NCBI RefSeq assembly: GCF_017876675.1
Contig: NZ_JAGIOI010000001.1
Span: 62,001-126,000, forward strand
Reading direction: 5' to 3'
From: Arthrobacter stackebrandtii
GTDB taxonomy: Bacteria > Actinomycetota > Actinomycetes > Actinomycetales > Micrococcaceae
Length of the DNA stretch: 64,000 nucleotides
Below are positions 28,025 through 39,334 of this stretch, in pieces. The notes under the pieces are model-generated. The model searched no databases. It worked only from the letters and a program-made list of their open reading frames with translations, and was not told where the DNA came from. Position 1 is the first letter of the stretch. Each line of letters starts with the position of its first letter. A program made the translations under genes and the position numbers.

Positions 28025-28992
<968 letters not shown>

Positions 28993-33111: not shown

Positions 33112-33393
33112 ATGAACGTACGATTCTTTGCCGCAGCAGCCGCCGCAACCGGTGTTGAGGAGCAGCGGATCGACCTTGCCACCCTGGCCGGTTCGCAGCC
33201 GTTCACGCTCGCAGACCTGTCCGAATTCCTCGTGGCCACCTTTCCGGCGTCGGCCTCAAGCCACACTCCGCCGCTGGCGGACGTGCTGACCCGGTGCAGC
33301 TTCCTGCTCAACGAGGTCTCCACGCGCGACCTCACGCTGGCACTCTCTGCCGGCGACGTCGTGGACGTGCTTCCGCCCTTCGCAGGCGGGTAG
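33112..33393 (+). CDS. moaD: Molybdopterin synthase sulfur carrier MoaD
   Basis: A ubiquitin-like 93-residue protein that carries sulfur as a C-terminal thiocarboxylate for MoaE; it ends in the required Gly-Gly (PPFAGG). The CSFLLNEV and DVVDVLPPFAGG segments match the family. ATG 33112 is chosen over one at 33097 because GGAGG lies 9 nt upstream, just before the moaA stop. Weak hairpins follow the stop codon (GCAGGC/GCCTGC at 33382-33398; GCCGG/CCGGC at 33397-33410). Confidence 0.9.
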   Translation: MNVRFFAAAAAATGVEEQRIDLATLAGSQPFTLADLSEFLVATFPASASSHTPPLADVLTRCSFLLNEVSTRDLTLALSAGDVVDVLPPFAGG

Positions 33394-33420
33394 CCTGCCG
33401 GCCTCCCGGCGGGACTTGGA

Positions 33421-33557
33421 TCCAGCGCGCGGTTTCTGGAACAACCATGCGCAGGTCCAAGAGCTGCGCACGGTTGGGACACAACCACGCGCAGGATTTG
33501 GAGTGCACATTGCGAAGCTGCCAGCCGCGTGCCTGAAACACAGAAATGGCCCCCCAA
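33421..33557. repeat. Structured ~137-bp repeat, copy A
   Basis: About 90% identical by eye to copy B at 35203-35339, in the same orientation. It contains the near-identical 15-mers ACAACCATGCGCAGG (33441-33455) and ACAACCACGCGCAGG (33481-33495), 40 bp apart. Alternating words GCGCAG (33449), CTGCGC (33464) and GCGCAG (33489) can form two mutually exclusive hairpins. The second is extended by GGTTG-GGACA-CAACC. It lies between moaD and the split LuxR gene. No known element was recognised. Confidence 0.8.
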
Positions 33558-33635
33558 ATTCATGGATTCGGGCCGCAACGGCGGTCTGGCGGAGACACTG
33601 CCATGGCGTGGGTGCCCGGCTCGCGTGCACACGTC

Positions 33636-33929
33636 TCACGAACTGCTGGGTGCCAGCGGTCCCAGCGACAGGGCCAGGAGGGCACCCCTGCTTTGCACGC
33701 CGCATTTGGCAAAGAGCGACTTAAAGACATCCTGGATCGTGTACCTGCTGATCCCCATCCTTCGGGCCAGTGCGGCTGTGTCCAGGCCCGCTGCGCACAG
33801 CTCCAACAACTGGCATTCCCGCTGGCTCAGGGCGAAACTGCGCTCGAAAACCTCGATCCGTTCCGAGGGCAGGGCGTCCTGGATCGTGACGGCAATCGGC
33901 GCCATGGCACCGGAGACCCCCGGGGTCAT
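33636..33929 (-). pseudogene. C-terminal HTH part of a split LuxR-type regulator
   Basis: These 97 residues hold a LuxR-type helix-turn-helix domain (LSQRECQLLELCAAGLDTAAL then ISRYTIQDVFKSLFAKCG). The expected sensory half is encoded just upstream in another frame. The ATG at 33929 overlaps the TGA of that upstream frame as ATGA, so it could be translated by coupling. Otherwise the gene carries a one-base deletion: adding one base before GGATGA joins the halves smoothly (SLSAARMT). So this is either a decayed gene, a sequencing error or a genuine two-part regulator. Confidence 0.7.
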
Positions 33930-34723
33930 CCTGCAGCTGAAAGGCTCGCCCAGACCCCGCTTCCCACATGGACGCGCGAACGGGCTGGATGGGCGTCGAC
34001 GCCGCACTCCACAGCCATGAGTTGTGCAGCCACGTTCAAGACCTCGGCCGGCACTCCGTTGTAGGGGCGAGGGGCCCGCTGCAGCAAATCAAGCCACAGG
34101 GCCGCTGATTCGGTTTGGCCCACGATGGACAATTCTTCATCCAGGACCAGCACGGCCTGGCGGTGGCCGGATGTGAACCCGTCGGGGGCGCCTCCTTGAA
34201 ACTCCCGGGCGGAGCAGTTCCGCAGACCCGTGGCAATGGCCGCCGACATGGTTTGCAGGCCCTGCGCCTCGGCGATGGAAAAGTCGGACCGCCCCTGTCC
34301 CCGCCACAGTTCAAGCCAACCCCACAGCCCCCAGCGGTCCGCGAAGGCAATGGACAGGACGTCCACCACCCCGTACCGGGACAAAAACCCCCACAGCGCA
34401 CTGCGGCCGGGCACATCCCCCACTCGCTGCTTCAGGGACACCGCACGCGACGGATTGACGGGCAGCGCGGTCCACCTGTTGACGGCTGTGCGGTACCTGA
34501 GCGAGATCAGTGCGGGCAGCTCCCCCGCGAACGGCCCCTGGGCCATCGGCGCGACACCAACGGTCGTGACCGGGTCCGCCAGCGGCCAGACCCAGGCATC
34601 ATGCCCGACGACGGCGTGCAGCTCGCCCAGCACTCCGGCACGGTAGGCGTGGCTTTCCAGGCCGGCGCCGCCCAGTTCCTCTACCCGGTCCAGGCAGCGT
34701 CGCAAGGCCCATTGGCTGGTCAT
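33926..34723 (-). pseudogene. N-terminal sensory part of a split LuxR-type regulator
   Basis: This 265-residue frame runs from ATG 34723 to the TGA at 33926. It resembles the N-terminal GAF-like region of actinobacterial LuxR-family regulators (GLWGWLELWRGQGRSDFS, then LVLDEELSIVGQTESAALWL) but lacks a DNA-binding domain. The HTH domain follows in the next frame, with ATGA overlap. The reading frame is otherwise clean, without internal stops, suggesting that the split is recent or artefactual. It is part of the accessory region beside the Moco genes. Confidence 0.7.
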
Positions 34724-34734
34724 GTCATCAGTAT

Positions 34735-34751
34735 GCGCGCATTGTGCGCGC
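34735..34751. promoter_or_regulatory. Inverted repeat before the LuxR-type gene
   Basis: GCGCGCA-TTG-TGCGCGC, a 7-bp inverted repeat with a 3-bp spacer, lies 12 bp upstream of the LuxR-type start in the divergent region with the small conserved gene. An operator, possibly for autoregulation, is inferred only from position. Confidence 0.4.
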
Positions 34752-34844
34752 CGCATGGGGTTCCGAATCCCAGATTTAAGGGATGTCGGCCCGCGGCCCG
34801 AGTGCCTAAAGTCAATGCATCGGCTTCCCTGAAAGGACAGTGTG

Positions 34845-35156
34845 ATGCATACCCTGCAGATTGAACACGGCATCAAGGACTTTGGCATGTGGCTGGGAGC
34901 CTATATGTCCGATCCGCTGGGGCGTGCAGCCTCAGGCGTGGTCGCCGAACGCGTGTACCGTCCGGTGGAGGACGAGCACTACGTTGCCCTGGACCTTGAT
35001 TTCGCCACGGCCGCCGAGGCTGAGCAATTCCTGGGACGCCTAAAGTCCCAGGTGTGGGCAACACCAGCCGCTTCCCCGGCCCTGGCAGGCGGACCCAAGA
35101 CCCGCATCGTCGAACAGGTCACCATTCCGGTGGCGCATCCTGACGGCACCGGGTAG
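34845..35156 (+). CDS. Small conserved hypothetical protein (103 aa)
   Basis: A soluble 103-residue protein beginning MHTLQIEHGIKDF, with the segment YVALDLDFATAAEAEQFLGRL in the middle and TRIVEQVTIP near the end. The pattern of alternating strands and helices suggests a ferredoxin-like (ABM/Dabb-type) fold, as in small proteins of many actinobacteria. ATG 34845 is used because AAGGA lies 7 nt upstream; a GTG one codon earlier is possible. It diverges from the split LuxR gene, which might regulate it. Function unknown. Confidence 0.75.
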   Translation: MHTLQIEHGIKDFGMWLGAYMSDPLGRAASGVVAERVYRPVEDEHYVALDLDFATAAEAEQFLGRLKSQVWATPAASPALAGGPKTRIVEQVTIPVAHPDGTG

Positions 35157-35202
35157 TGGCAGTTCCGTGCCGGCAGCCGTCGGCCGGCCGCCCGGACCTT
35201 GC

Positions 35203-35339
35203 TCCAGCGCGTGGCTACGGAACAACCATGCGCAGGCCCAAGAGCTGCGCACAGTTGGGACACAACCACGCGCAGGATTTGGAGTGCACAACGCGAACCC
35301 GCAAGCCACGTGCCTGAAAACACAGAAATGGCCCCCAAA
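35203..35339. repeat. Structured ~137-bp repeat, copy B
   Basis: The second copy of the element at 33421-33557, in the same orientation, with about a dozen mismatches and two single-base gaps. The internal 15-mers are at 35222-35236 and 35262-35276, again 40 bp apart. One mismatch in the inner stem (G to A) weakens one pair but leaves the fold possible. The copy lies between the small conserved gene and the M16 peptidase gene. Both copies also show the same accidental minus-strand reading frame (CTPNPARGCVPTVRSSW), which I do not call a gene. Confidence 0.8.
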
Positions 35340-35376
35340 CATGTCATTTGGGGGCCACCTCCGTGACGCAGAGGGC

Positions 35377-36735
35377 CTAGAGGCCGAAGGTTTCGCTTTC
35401 CTCGAACGGGCCGACCACGGTGATGGTGCGCGGGGCGGCAGCCAGTTCGCGGGCCAGCGCCTGCACCTCCGCGGCCGTGACGGCGCGGATCCGGTCCAGG
35501 GATTCGTCAATGTCCAGGAACTCACCGGTGACGATTTCGGCCCGGCCCAGACGGGACATGCGGGAGCCGCTGTCCTCGAGGGCAAGCACGATGCCGCCGG
35601 ACAGCTGGCCCAGTGCCTTCTTCAATTCTTCGGCGGACACGCCGTGCTCGGCCAGCTTCTCCAGCTCGTCCGTCAGCAGGCCGATGACCTGGCCGACCTT
35701 GGCCGGGGCACAGCCGGCGTACATGCCGAAGTAGCCTGCATCGGCGTACGAGGATGCGAAGGAGTAGGTGGAGTACACGAGCCCGCGCTTCTCGCGGATC
35801 TCCTGGAACAGGCGCGAGGACATGCCGCCGCCGAGAATCGAGTTCAGCACGCTCATGACGTAGCGGCGTTCATCGGTGGCGCGCAGGGAGGGGCAGCCCA
35901 TGATGATGTTGGCCTGTTCCACCTGGCGGTTCACCACGTGCAGCCCGGCTGTCCCGGTGATGGAGACCGGTTCGCTGGAACGCCTGGCCGCGGGCACTGC
36001 GCCCTCGTCAAGGGACCAGCCTGCGGTTTCCAGGGCGTCCTGGACCAGCCGGCACACGGTGTCGTGTTCAAGGCCGCCGGCGGCCGTGATGACCAGCGTC
36101 TCCGGCCGGTAGTGCTTTTGGTAGTGGGCCCACACGGATTCCCGCGGGACGGCCATGATGGCTTCGGGCGTTCCGCCGATGGGGCGGCCAAGTGCATGGT
36201 CTCCCAGCACTGCGGCAACAAACTTTTCGTGGGCGACGTCGGTGGGGTCGTCGCCGTCCATGGCAATTTCTTCCAGGATGACGTCGCGTTCCTGCTCCAG
36301 CTCTGCCGGGTCAATCACGGCTGAGGTGACCATGTCGGCGATGACGTCAATGGCCATGGGCAGGTCGGTGTCCAGCACGCGTGCGTAGTAGCAGGTGCTT
36401 TCCTTGGCCGTCGCGGCGTTGGACTCCCCGCCCACCTCATCAAAGGCGGACGCGATTTCCAGTGCCGTGCGGCGCTTGGTTCCCTTGAACAGCAAGTGTT
36501 CCAGGAAATGGGTTGAGCCGTGTTGGCCCTCGGATTCGTCCCGAGAGCCAACACCAACCCAAAACCCGATTGTCGCGCTGCGCTGGCCGGGCATGGCTTC
36601 CGTCAGGACCCGCACTCCCCCGGGCAGGACCGAGCGGCGCACAACGGCGCCGCCGGCCTGGCCGGAGATGAGCGTGGGGTCGGAACCGTCAGGTCCGTCG
36701 GCGGCACTGAGCAGCGGCAAAAGGGTGATCGCCAT
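35377..36735 (-). CDS. M16 family zinc metallopeptidase
   Basis: A 452-residue pitrilysin-type peptidase with the inverted zinc motif HFLEH at 76-80 and the downstream glutamate in NAATAKESTCYYA. Processing-peptidase-like members of this family sit directly after pnp in many actinobacteria, as here (3 bp from the pnp stop). It probably degrades small peptides in the cytoplasm. No signal peptide is seen. The gene downstream is separated by repeat copy B and the accessory region. Confidence 0.92.
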   Translation of the reverse strand: MAITLLPLLSAADGPDGSDPTLISGQAGGAVVRRSVLPGGVRVLTEAMPGQRSATIGFWVGVGSRDESEGQHGSTHFLEHLLFKGTKRRTALEIASAFDEVGGESNAATAKESTCYYARVLDTDLPMAIDVIADMVTSAVIDPAELEQERDVILEEIAMDGDDPTDVAHEKFVAAVLGDHALGRPIGGTPEAIMAVPRESVWAHYQKHYRPETLVITAAGGLEHDTVCRLVQDALETAGWSLDEGAVPAARRSSEPVSITGTAGLHVVNRQVEQANIIMGCPSLRATDERRYVMSVLNSILGGGMSSRLFQEIREKRGLVYSTYSFASSYADAGYFGMYAGCAPAKVGQVIGLLTDELEKLAEHGVSAEELKKALGQLSGGIVLALEDSGSRMSRLGRAEIVTGEFLDIDESLDRIRAVTAAEVQALARELAAAPRTITVVGPFEESETFGL

Positions 36736-38979: not shown

Positions 38980-39334
38980 GAGAGAGTCACCTCCATTTCG
39001 TGGTAGATGTTCTTCGTTGAACCCCGCATCGGCGCCGGTGCGGCATTCTTTCCAGGTACCACCGGATGGTGCTGTGGTCCTGATGTACGACACCCGGTCT
39101 TCGATCGAGGCCCACGGGCCTGGGCATTCTCATGCCCTTTCCCGGAAGCCACTACCGAGGACCGCGAATGCGTGAATGCCTTGCGGTGTGTGGTGAGGCG
39201 GGGTGGTGGTGCGTGTGCGGGGCGGTGCCCGCACTGTTTCACAGCATAGCGTTCCTACACTGTGAAAGGCGGCCCTCCCACGGCCACAACACAAGTGTCG
39301 TGGCACCGGGAAGGCCGCCTTTCAAATCACGCAA
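38980..39334. other. rpsO-pnp intergenic region (no gene seen)
   Basis: 355 bp with no credible reading frame. The rpsO-proximal end holds a large imperfect hairpin (39264-39323). The rest, toward pnp, is the pnp leader, GC-rich with several small inverted repeats. Autogenous control of pnp through RNase processing of its leader is known in other bacteria, but no specific site can be named here. Confidence 0.55.
39264..39323 (-). terminator. Large hairpin downstream of rpsO
   Basis: GAAAGGCGGCC (39264-39274) pairs with GGCCGCCTTTC (39313-39323). Inside the loop, GCCAC-a-ACAC and GTGT-c-GTGGC form a second stem. It begins 12 bp after the rpsO stop. A terminator or processing site between rpsO and pnp. 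Confidence 0.75.

Follow-up and report, generated by a model that had tools for sequence, protein, structure and literature searches.

What are two nearly identical, hairpin-forming repeats doing within 2 kb of an Arthrobacter chromosome? The window examined here is a stretch of 64,000 nucleotides from Arthrobacter stackebrandtii (RefSeq assembly GCF_017876675.1, contig NZ_JAGIOI010000001.1, positions 62,001 to 126,000). It contains a 137-bp repeat in two copies, copy A (33421–33557) and copy B (35203–35339), which are 90% identical in the same orientation (E 7.9e-46). An earlier note had described this pair, at about 90% identity, and had likened it to an attenuator or to a mobile element of the repetitive extragenic palindromic (REP) or miniature inverted-repeat transposable element (MITE) type. 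The pair was confirmed, and the finding is larger than that description: the hairpin carried by both copies belongs to a family dispersed over the chromosome and across the genus, and hairpins of this family also bracket a gene for a putative hairpin-reading nuclease. We put the probability at roughly 0.5 that hairpin family and gene form a system resembling REPINs (REP doublets forming hairpins) and RAYTs (REP-associated tyrosine transposases), here with a homing-type nuclease, in which copies A and B would be gene-less solo copies.

A genus-wide family of nested hairpins

The A/B unit is composite, which the earlier note missed. A DNA search with copy A returned 11 rows, namely A, B, and nine shorter matches to the hairpin portion of A, two of which are one place read on both strands. 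The left part of the unit (~70–89 nt) is dispersed and the right ~55 bp is not, with exactly two copies in the genome at 88% identity (query 33495–33560). Two covariance models were used, R1 built from ten sequences and R2 from 39 89-mers in a gapless MAFFT alignment. R2 matched at least 39 places in the 4.43-Mb chromosome, A and B included (E ≤ 0.001, counted from 74 rows). Because R2 scored the best 150 of 2312 candidates, this count is a lower bound, and one place (L198) from a search of 864 kb lies outside the 39. R1 gave 19 places (38 two-strand rows) in the same genome. The match was exactly 89 nt long in 35 of the 39 R2 places.

The family is nearly confined to one Arthrobacter genus. 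R2 matched all 23 genus genomes at E ≤ 0.001, with 1 to 74 two-strand rows each, and nine of 148 genomes (3 of 32 genera) in a family-wide sample, where stricter filters missed the genus genome G015. All 21 matches of R1 among 58 relatives were within the genus (21 of 23 genomes), with none in the 35 genomes outside it. An exact pattern fitting 23 of the 39 aligned copies met 23 stretches in GTDB species genomes, 15 of them in records named Arthrobacter; the other eight are in a record labelled Sporosarcina beigongshangi REN13, a label that looks wrong, as the record matches the same-genus genome G012. The pattern had no match in viral contigs. Diverged relatives of the hairpin were seen in two other genera of the family (L133 and L136 in G154, L134 in G138, L135 in G153), and tblastn found no nuclease gene in the short stretches around them. 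The earlier note had allowed for a single duplication of noncoding DNA with no further copies and no conservation, which is not what was found. Local duplication as the full account of the A/B hairpin was rejected on the copy count.

Since the outer arms pair mutually, a second point missed earlier, each copy favours a single long hairpin with nested stems. Its outer stem measures up to 21 bp and contains an invariant GCG; a 7 × 7 internal loop, an 11-bp inner stem with a conserved GCGC, and a small apical stem complete it. None of 200 dinucleotide shuffles equalled the minus-strand folds of A and B in stability (z −3.99 and −3.91, respectively), and the plus-strand folds were weaker (z −2.15 and −2.57, with 5 and 2 of 200 shuffles equally stable). 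Covariation in the stems was strong. In the nested fold, 82.9% of cells were paired versus 70.7% in shuffled alignments of the 39 sequences, and 197 cells showed changes on both sides versus 86 shuffled (0 of 500 shuffles as high). The covariation score of 0.375 was far above both controls, which reached 0.176 for shuffled alignments (0 of 500 as high) and at most 0.111 for slid partners. Covariation was unconvincing with ten sequences (33 of 500 shuffles reached the score) and clear with 39; the sequences added came from searches with R1, a model that carries the nested fold, so the sample leans towards that fold.

The earlier note had also described a 15-bp direct repeat and alternating GCGCAG/CTGCGC words, the latter allowing an attenuator-like switch between two exclusive hairpins. 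Both features are present in the sequence. The direct repeat of copy A lies at 33441–33455 and 33481–33495, with one mismatch and a spacing of 40 bp; it was read from the letters, an automated repeat search that requires a longer exact seed not listing it. With the complementary words, the alternative fold would have 76.6% of its cells paired. The two exclusive side hairpins, however, covary at shuffle level in the 39 copies (0.149 versus 0.140 shuffled, 90 of 500 as high), and the elements are mostly downstream of genes, which leaves the switch very improbable. The earlier interpretation is therefore supported for a dispersed hairpin family and not for an attenuator.

PMC8794818 describes template switching during replication as able to create and maintain hairpins with paired changes. 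The hairpins could then be inert palindromes with arms kept alike by this process, and their link to the nuclease gene would be old hitch-hiking. The 7 × 7 bubble is more complementary than shuffled sequence (44% versus 33%), which suggests that arm homogenisation by template switching may contribute. Yet most of the bubble stays unpaired, species have the hairpin length and the GCGC boxes in common, and the gene, which is under purifying selection, retains hairpins at several sites. We consider inert palindromes decidedly improbable. A known RNA identity was rejected, as the element scored below the gathering threshold of every Rfam family, both in the window and in ten loci. Rfam rows in the ten loci were confined to a SAM-IV riboswitch lying apart from the element and, at L068 (828–891), a mir-9198 match below threshold, which overlaps a weak extra R1 hit.

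A predicted nuclease gene between the hairpins

In several genomes, two hairpins about 1 kb apart enclose a gene for a protein of ~280 aa. A profile of four rows detected this gene in 22 of the 23 genus genomes, with three copies in A. stackebrandtii, one of them containing a stop. Thirty gene loci were fetched from the profile search, two sibling pairs of which are near copies (L241/L242 and L261/L262). An R2 hairpin adjoins the gene in 24 of these loci and flanks both sides in 15 (E ≤ 0.01). Downstream hairpins begin 21–28 nt ahead of the end of the stop codon in 16 of 18 cases; an upstream hairpin is present in 21 loci, the nearest ending 95–172 nt before the profile match. Among 753 predicted A. 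stackebrandtii genes used as a control, none had hairpins on both sides within 200 nt, and in one a hairpin began between −35 and +15 relative to the stop. The nuclease gene is under purifying selection, with a ratio of nonsynonymous to synonymous substitution rates of ~0.10–0.43 in 10 of 12 pairs, the other two pairs being not computable. Between the upstream hairpin and the gene start, most of ten leaders compared (e.g., L238, L240, and L262) hold a CTCCACAG...TTGTTCACA/TTGTCCACA pair, which we take to resemble DnaA boxes. DUF559 (PF04480) genes were also considered as hairpin partners and rejected; A. stackebrandtii has two, with no R2 match at either locus.

The protein is predicted to join an AbiEi-like winged-helix N-terminus to a C-terminal endonuclease of the Vsr/EDxHD fold. 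An AlphaFold model from 35 sequences reached a predicted local distance difference test (pLDDT) score of 89.3 and a predicted template modelling (pTM) score of 0.83; a model from four sequences was poor (pLDDT 68.1). Foldseek matched the model to the AbiEi antitoxin 6y8q (E 1.3e-4) and to Rv2827c (1zel, E 2.3e-4), and PADLOC AbiEi matches went down to 3.5e-7. For the C-terminal part, the likeness was to nucleases of the EDxHD/DUF559 type, with TMt 0.69 for 3hrl and 0.60–0.61 for 3r3p, the I-Bth0305I domain, at weak E-values of 0.17–0.65. Five acidic or histidine positions (D207, E217, D219, H224, and D233) do not vary among the 35 proteins. Pfam gave two matches below cut-off, REase_MTES_1575 and, in one of the members scanned, AbiEi_4; MTES_1575 is described as a Vsr-fold domain in PMC3710099. 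No NCBIfam model matched the four members scanned, and no PDB chain matched the 4-row profile by sequence. Plasmids, phages, and viral contigs held no relative of the protein at the thresholds used, and a phage or plasmid origin was rejected on this result together with the absence of the hairpin pattern from viral contigs.

AbiEi antitoxins bind DNA to autoregulate their own operon. The AbiEi-like domain might likewise bind hairpin DNA as an autoregulatory or regulon site, the solo copies then being regulatory sites, and both the N-terminus and a hairpin at limited distance ahead of the gene fit this operator role. But the solo copies are mostly downstream of genes, and the compensatory changes imply paired strands, beyond duplex boxes alone. 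The hairpin at the stop codon would be an odd operator, and the nuclease domain would be superfluous. An operator family seems improbable on this evidence.

In a clustering of the A. stackebrandtii hairpins, 18 are type I, A and B included. Type II has 17 members, among them two that adjoin gene copy 455692, and type III comprises three hairpins plus one ~260 nt upstream of gene copy 747566; the remainder are a pair beside the third gene copy and two singles. Orthologous gaps may carry different subtypes in different species. Over five genomes, 11 of 14 unit hairpins had their best solo match in the same genome: 4 of 4 in A. stackebrandtii, 2 of 2 in G012, 2 of 2 in G011, 3 of 4 in G022, and 0 of 2 in G019, compared against 36, 11, 14, 5, and 3 solos, respectively.

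Six sites cover the 30 loci, and additional loci belong with others, which puts the gene at six or more sites. Site S1 accounts for 20 of the 30; it has an ABC-F-like gene on one side, glmU on the other, and a likely transfer RNA gene next to it (named by eye). At a sulfite-reductase site (also named by eye), two of the 23 genomes carry hairpin, gene, and hairpin, A. stackebrandtii has two hairpins without the gene, seven genomes have one hairpin (E ≤ 0.001), and 13 have none in the gap (one with a weak match at E 0.57 and one with a match elsewhere). At a DUF488/valS-like site, the full arrangement is present in G012, and two other strains, Arthrobacter sp. H35-MC1 and A. psychrochitiniphilus GP3, each show the hairpin without the gene. 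Occupied and hairpin-only alleles at these two sites were seen between species. A. stackebrandtii and G012 differ by 423 bp at the sulfite-reductase site; this could be a loss in G012, so the site does not set the direction of gain or loss. In the protein tree, where four rows carried no site assignment, S2, S5, and S6 each form one group, and the distribution of S1 calls for a minimum of four changes on starred (well-supported) branches.

The same hairpins at both ends of a likely nuclease gene suggest an undescribed kind of self-spreading DNA. In the REPIN/RAYT-like system favoured here, the ~89-nt hairpin of the A/B type would behave as a REPIN, that is, a non-autonomous palindrome in intergenic gaps, mostly at gene 3′ ends. 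The partner gene is carried between two hairpins, one ~95–172 nt before it and one over its last 21–28 nt. Where single-stranded or supercoiled DNA extrudes the hairpin, the protein may recognise it, reading the GCGC boxes on the two paired stems round the 7 × 7 bubble, and would nick or cut there. Repair from another copy would move the gene into hairpin sites (homing) or spread hairpins, and loss of the gene would leave solo hairpins. Whether this amounts to a new class of mobile element is a more tentative matter, to which we give somewhat less than an even chance. In such a class, a Vsr/EDxHD-fold nuclease with an AbiEi-like domain, instead of a transposase, would recognise long covarying hairpins, bear its own gene between a pair of them, home into solos, and seed one genus with dozens of non-autonomous hairpins, with a subtype for each nuclease lineage.

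Several results weigh against this system. Six of the 30 gene loci had no hairpin at E ≤ 0.01, and the same held for 8 of 16 further fetched places (15 of the 16 have the gene by tblastn); matches at the other eight were at looser positions, and one was 42 nt long. No gene copy in A. stackebrandtii is flanked by type I, despite the 18 hairpins of that type, and the G019 unit hairpins did not match their own three solos best. The C-terminal fold match is weak by E-value. With 20 of 30 loci at one conserved site, movement would be rare at best. Target-site duplications, which the earlier note had proposed looking for, were not recognised by eye at the three sites compared, where the flanks are divergent. 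The placement of the hairpins, taken up below, also suits transcription terminators. Cutting, hairpin recognition, movement or action in trans, homing, and the direction of gene gain or loss are what we infer from these arrangements.

Placement of the hairpins and the A/B locus

In the 864 kb searched (the window and two 400-kb blocks), R2 found 21 places at E ≤ 0.05. By a codon-usage gene finder, 7 were in convergent gaps, 13 in co-directional gaps, 1 in a divergent gap, and 0 in coding sequence, with densities per 10 kb of 3.3, 2.1, 0.3, and 0, respectively. When 32 gaps of this genome were read singly, 14 were convergent, 14 co-directional, and 4 divergent, and none of the elements overlapped a predicted gene. 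Hairpins of any sequence scoring ≥13 (n = 123) were distributed in a like manner (41 convergent, 68 co-directional, 8 divergent, 6 coding). Other long-hairpin sequences also recur in intergenic gaps of A. stackebrandtii (B1/B2 blocks, L196–L235; window 28840–28952), examples being GGGGGCAGATA...GGCGGAT arms, ATGCGCCCGTTCCCC arms, and TGATCCCG boxes. A reading of the R2 family as integron attC-like sites was dropped because the copies are scattered singly.

The hairpins could instead be 3′-end structures used by the host, either bidirectional terminators or protectors of mRNA 3′ ends, which the nuclease gene shares as terminators. Their higher density in convergent and co-directional than in divergent gaps, and their absence from coding sequence, would fit. 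The gap downstream of the peptidase gene next to copy B points the same way: among 22 loci searched, R2 hairpins occupy it in A. stackebrandtii, G001, G004, G005, G019, and G022, with a weak remnant in G012, and other species have unrelated strong hairpins there or none, as if the two kinds were interchangeable. The consensus, however, has no T-run after the hairpin (columns 80–89 of the 39 rows), and neither the GCGC boxes nor a length held close to 89 nt would be required of a terminator. The upstream hairpin in 21 of 30 nuclease loci and the genome-specific subtypes would be left unexplained, and four of the 32 gaps are divergent. We regard host-used 3′-end structures as unlikely, though well worth weighing. 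The unrelated hairpins at the peptidase-downstream gap of G016, G011, and G013 (L168, L173, and L181) scored 27, 32, and 30, respectively.

Both copies in the window lie in convergent gaps. Copy A is placed between a moaD-like gene (33112–33393, plus strand, named by eye) and a LuxR-like gene (33636–34723, minus strand, a name taken from the earlier note), which is split by a frameshift into two overlapping open reading frames (ORFs; 33636–33929 and 33926–34723). Its hairpin element of 90 nt (33414–33503, plus strand) clustered as type I and scored 64.3 bits with R2 on the plus strand and 50.6 bits on the minus strand. By the two-copy DNA search result, the tail that follows (33504–33557, plus strand) is common only to copy B. 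Copy B is placed between a small gene of 103 aa (34845–35156, plus strand) and the peptidase gene (35377–36735, minus strand, M16-like by eye); these two genes and the moaD-like gene were called by the codon-usage gene finder. The copy B element, 89 nt and likewise type I by clustering (35196–35284, plus strand), scored 59.7 bits (plus) and 48.5 bits (minus), and its tail, common only to copy A by the same search, spans 35285–35339 (plus strand). A short terminator-like hairpin of 11 bp (35329–35357) adjoins copy B and overlaps the tail end. Elsewhere in the window, an Actino-pnp RNA leader at Rfam threshold lies at 39093–39166 (minus strand).

In relatives where the moaD and peptidase genes are predicted adjacent, the two are convergent, with one (G005) or two (G019) R2 hairpins between them. 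The LuxR-like gene and the small gene occupy this gap in A. stackebrandtii, G016, G006, G014, and G010. The moaD/LuxR gap is at most 17 bp in G016, G006, and G014 and 242 bp in A. stackebrandtii, where it contains copy A. At the same place, the LuxR-like gene is intact as a single ORF in G016 (363 aa) and G006 (359 aa). Because A and B have the extra tail in common, hairpin and tail appear to have been duplicated together locally. We infer a type-I hairpin between the moaD and peptidase genes, doubled by local duplication that may have come with the LuxR module it surrounds. Of the mobility or duplication suggested by the earlier note, local duplication would apply to the A/B pair, and the case for a mobile family is made by the nuclease-gene units elsewhere. 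The tail as a remnant of a nuclease unit was rejected, with just three short matches (E 0.018–0.042). Other gaps hold two identical or near-identical hairpins 150–250 bp apart (L127, 3001–3089 and 3247–3335; L176), a sign of local tandem duplication.

Comparison with known systems

The earlier idea of a REP- or MITE-type element was right in spirit, in that the hairpins are intergenic, dispersed, multi-copy, and genus-wide. They share with MITEs a short, non-coding, palindromic form; no target-site duplication was recognised by eye at the three sites compared, whose flanks are divergent. Bidirectional intrinsic terminators have in common with them hairpins in convergent and downstream gaps, whereas the Arthrobacter hairpins lack the T-run, keep a near-constant length and conserved boxes, and also stand upstream of the nuclease gene.

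A tentative likeness exists to free-standing homing endonuclease genes (EDxHD class, I-Bth0305I), in predicted fold, through the match to 3r3p at a weak E-value, and in sites with and without the gene, seen here between species. Unlike them, the Arthrobacter gene is bounded by hairpins that also occur solo in dozens and has an AbiEi-like N-terminus, and no intron or intein was seen. With AbiE (type IV) toxin-antitoxin systems the protein shares its AbiEi-like winged-helix part (PADLOC 3.5e-7; 6y8q, E 1.3e-4), but here the nuclease is fused in one protein, and the units read hold one gene, no search for AbiEii having been made. The literature searched, with few subscription papers and no preprints, yielded no published description of such a hairpin-nuclease system.

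The closest likeness is to REP/REPIN-RAYT systems. In both, short palindromic extragenic repeats occur in many copies (at least 39 places here, with 0 of 21 in predicted coding sequence), and an enzyme gene is flanked by the same hairpins, with subtypes matched within the genome. The enzyme is a different one. The Y1/HUH transposase (PF01797) had 0 matches in A. stackebrandtii, with 5 of 14 control genomes positive, and a RAYT partner was rejected for this genome for want of Y1_Tnp; the Arthrobacter partner is instead a nuclease of predicted Vsr/EDxHD fold with an AbiEi-like domain. The element also differs, being 89 nt long with a fixed 7 × 7 bubble. No conserved GTAG or CGTC tetranucleotide, given as a REP-end feature in PMC3733652, appears at either end of the 39-row consensus. 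By the transposase (in this genome) and the end tag, the Arthrobacter hairpins stand outside the REP family. If the reading is true, the REP/RAYT lifestyle of an enzyme with a cloud of hairpin satellites would have arisen a second time around an unrelated enzyme, with hairpin recognition, rather than HUH chemistry, as the common factor. It would also account for a repeat family scattered through the genomes of a widespread soil genus, and would offer candidate nucleases specific for hairpins, together with the targets that match them.

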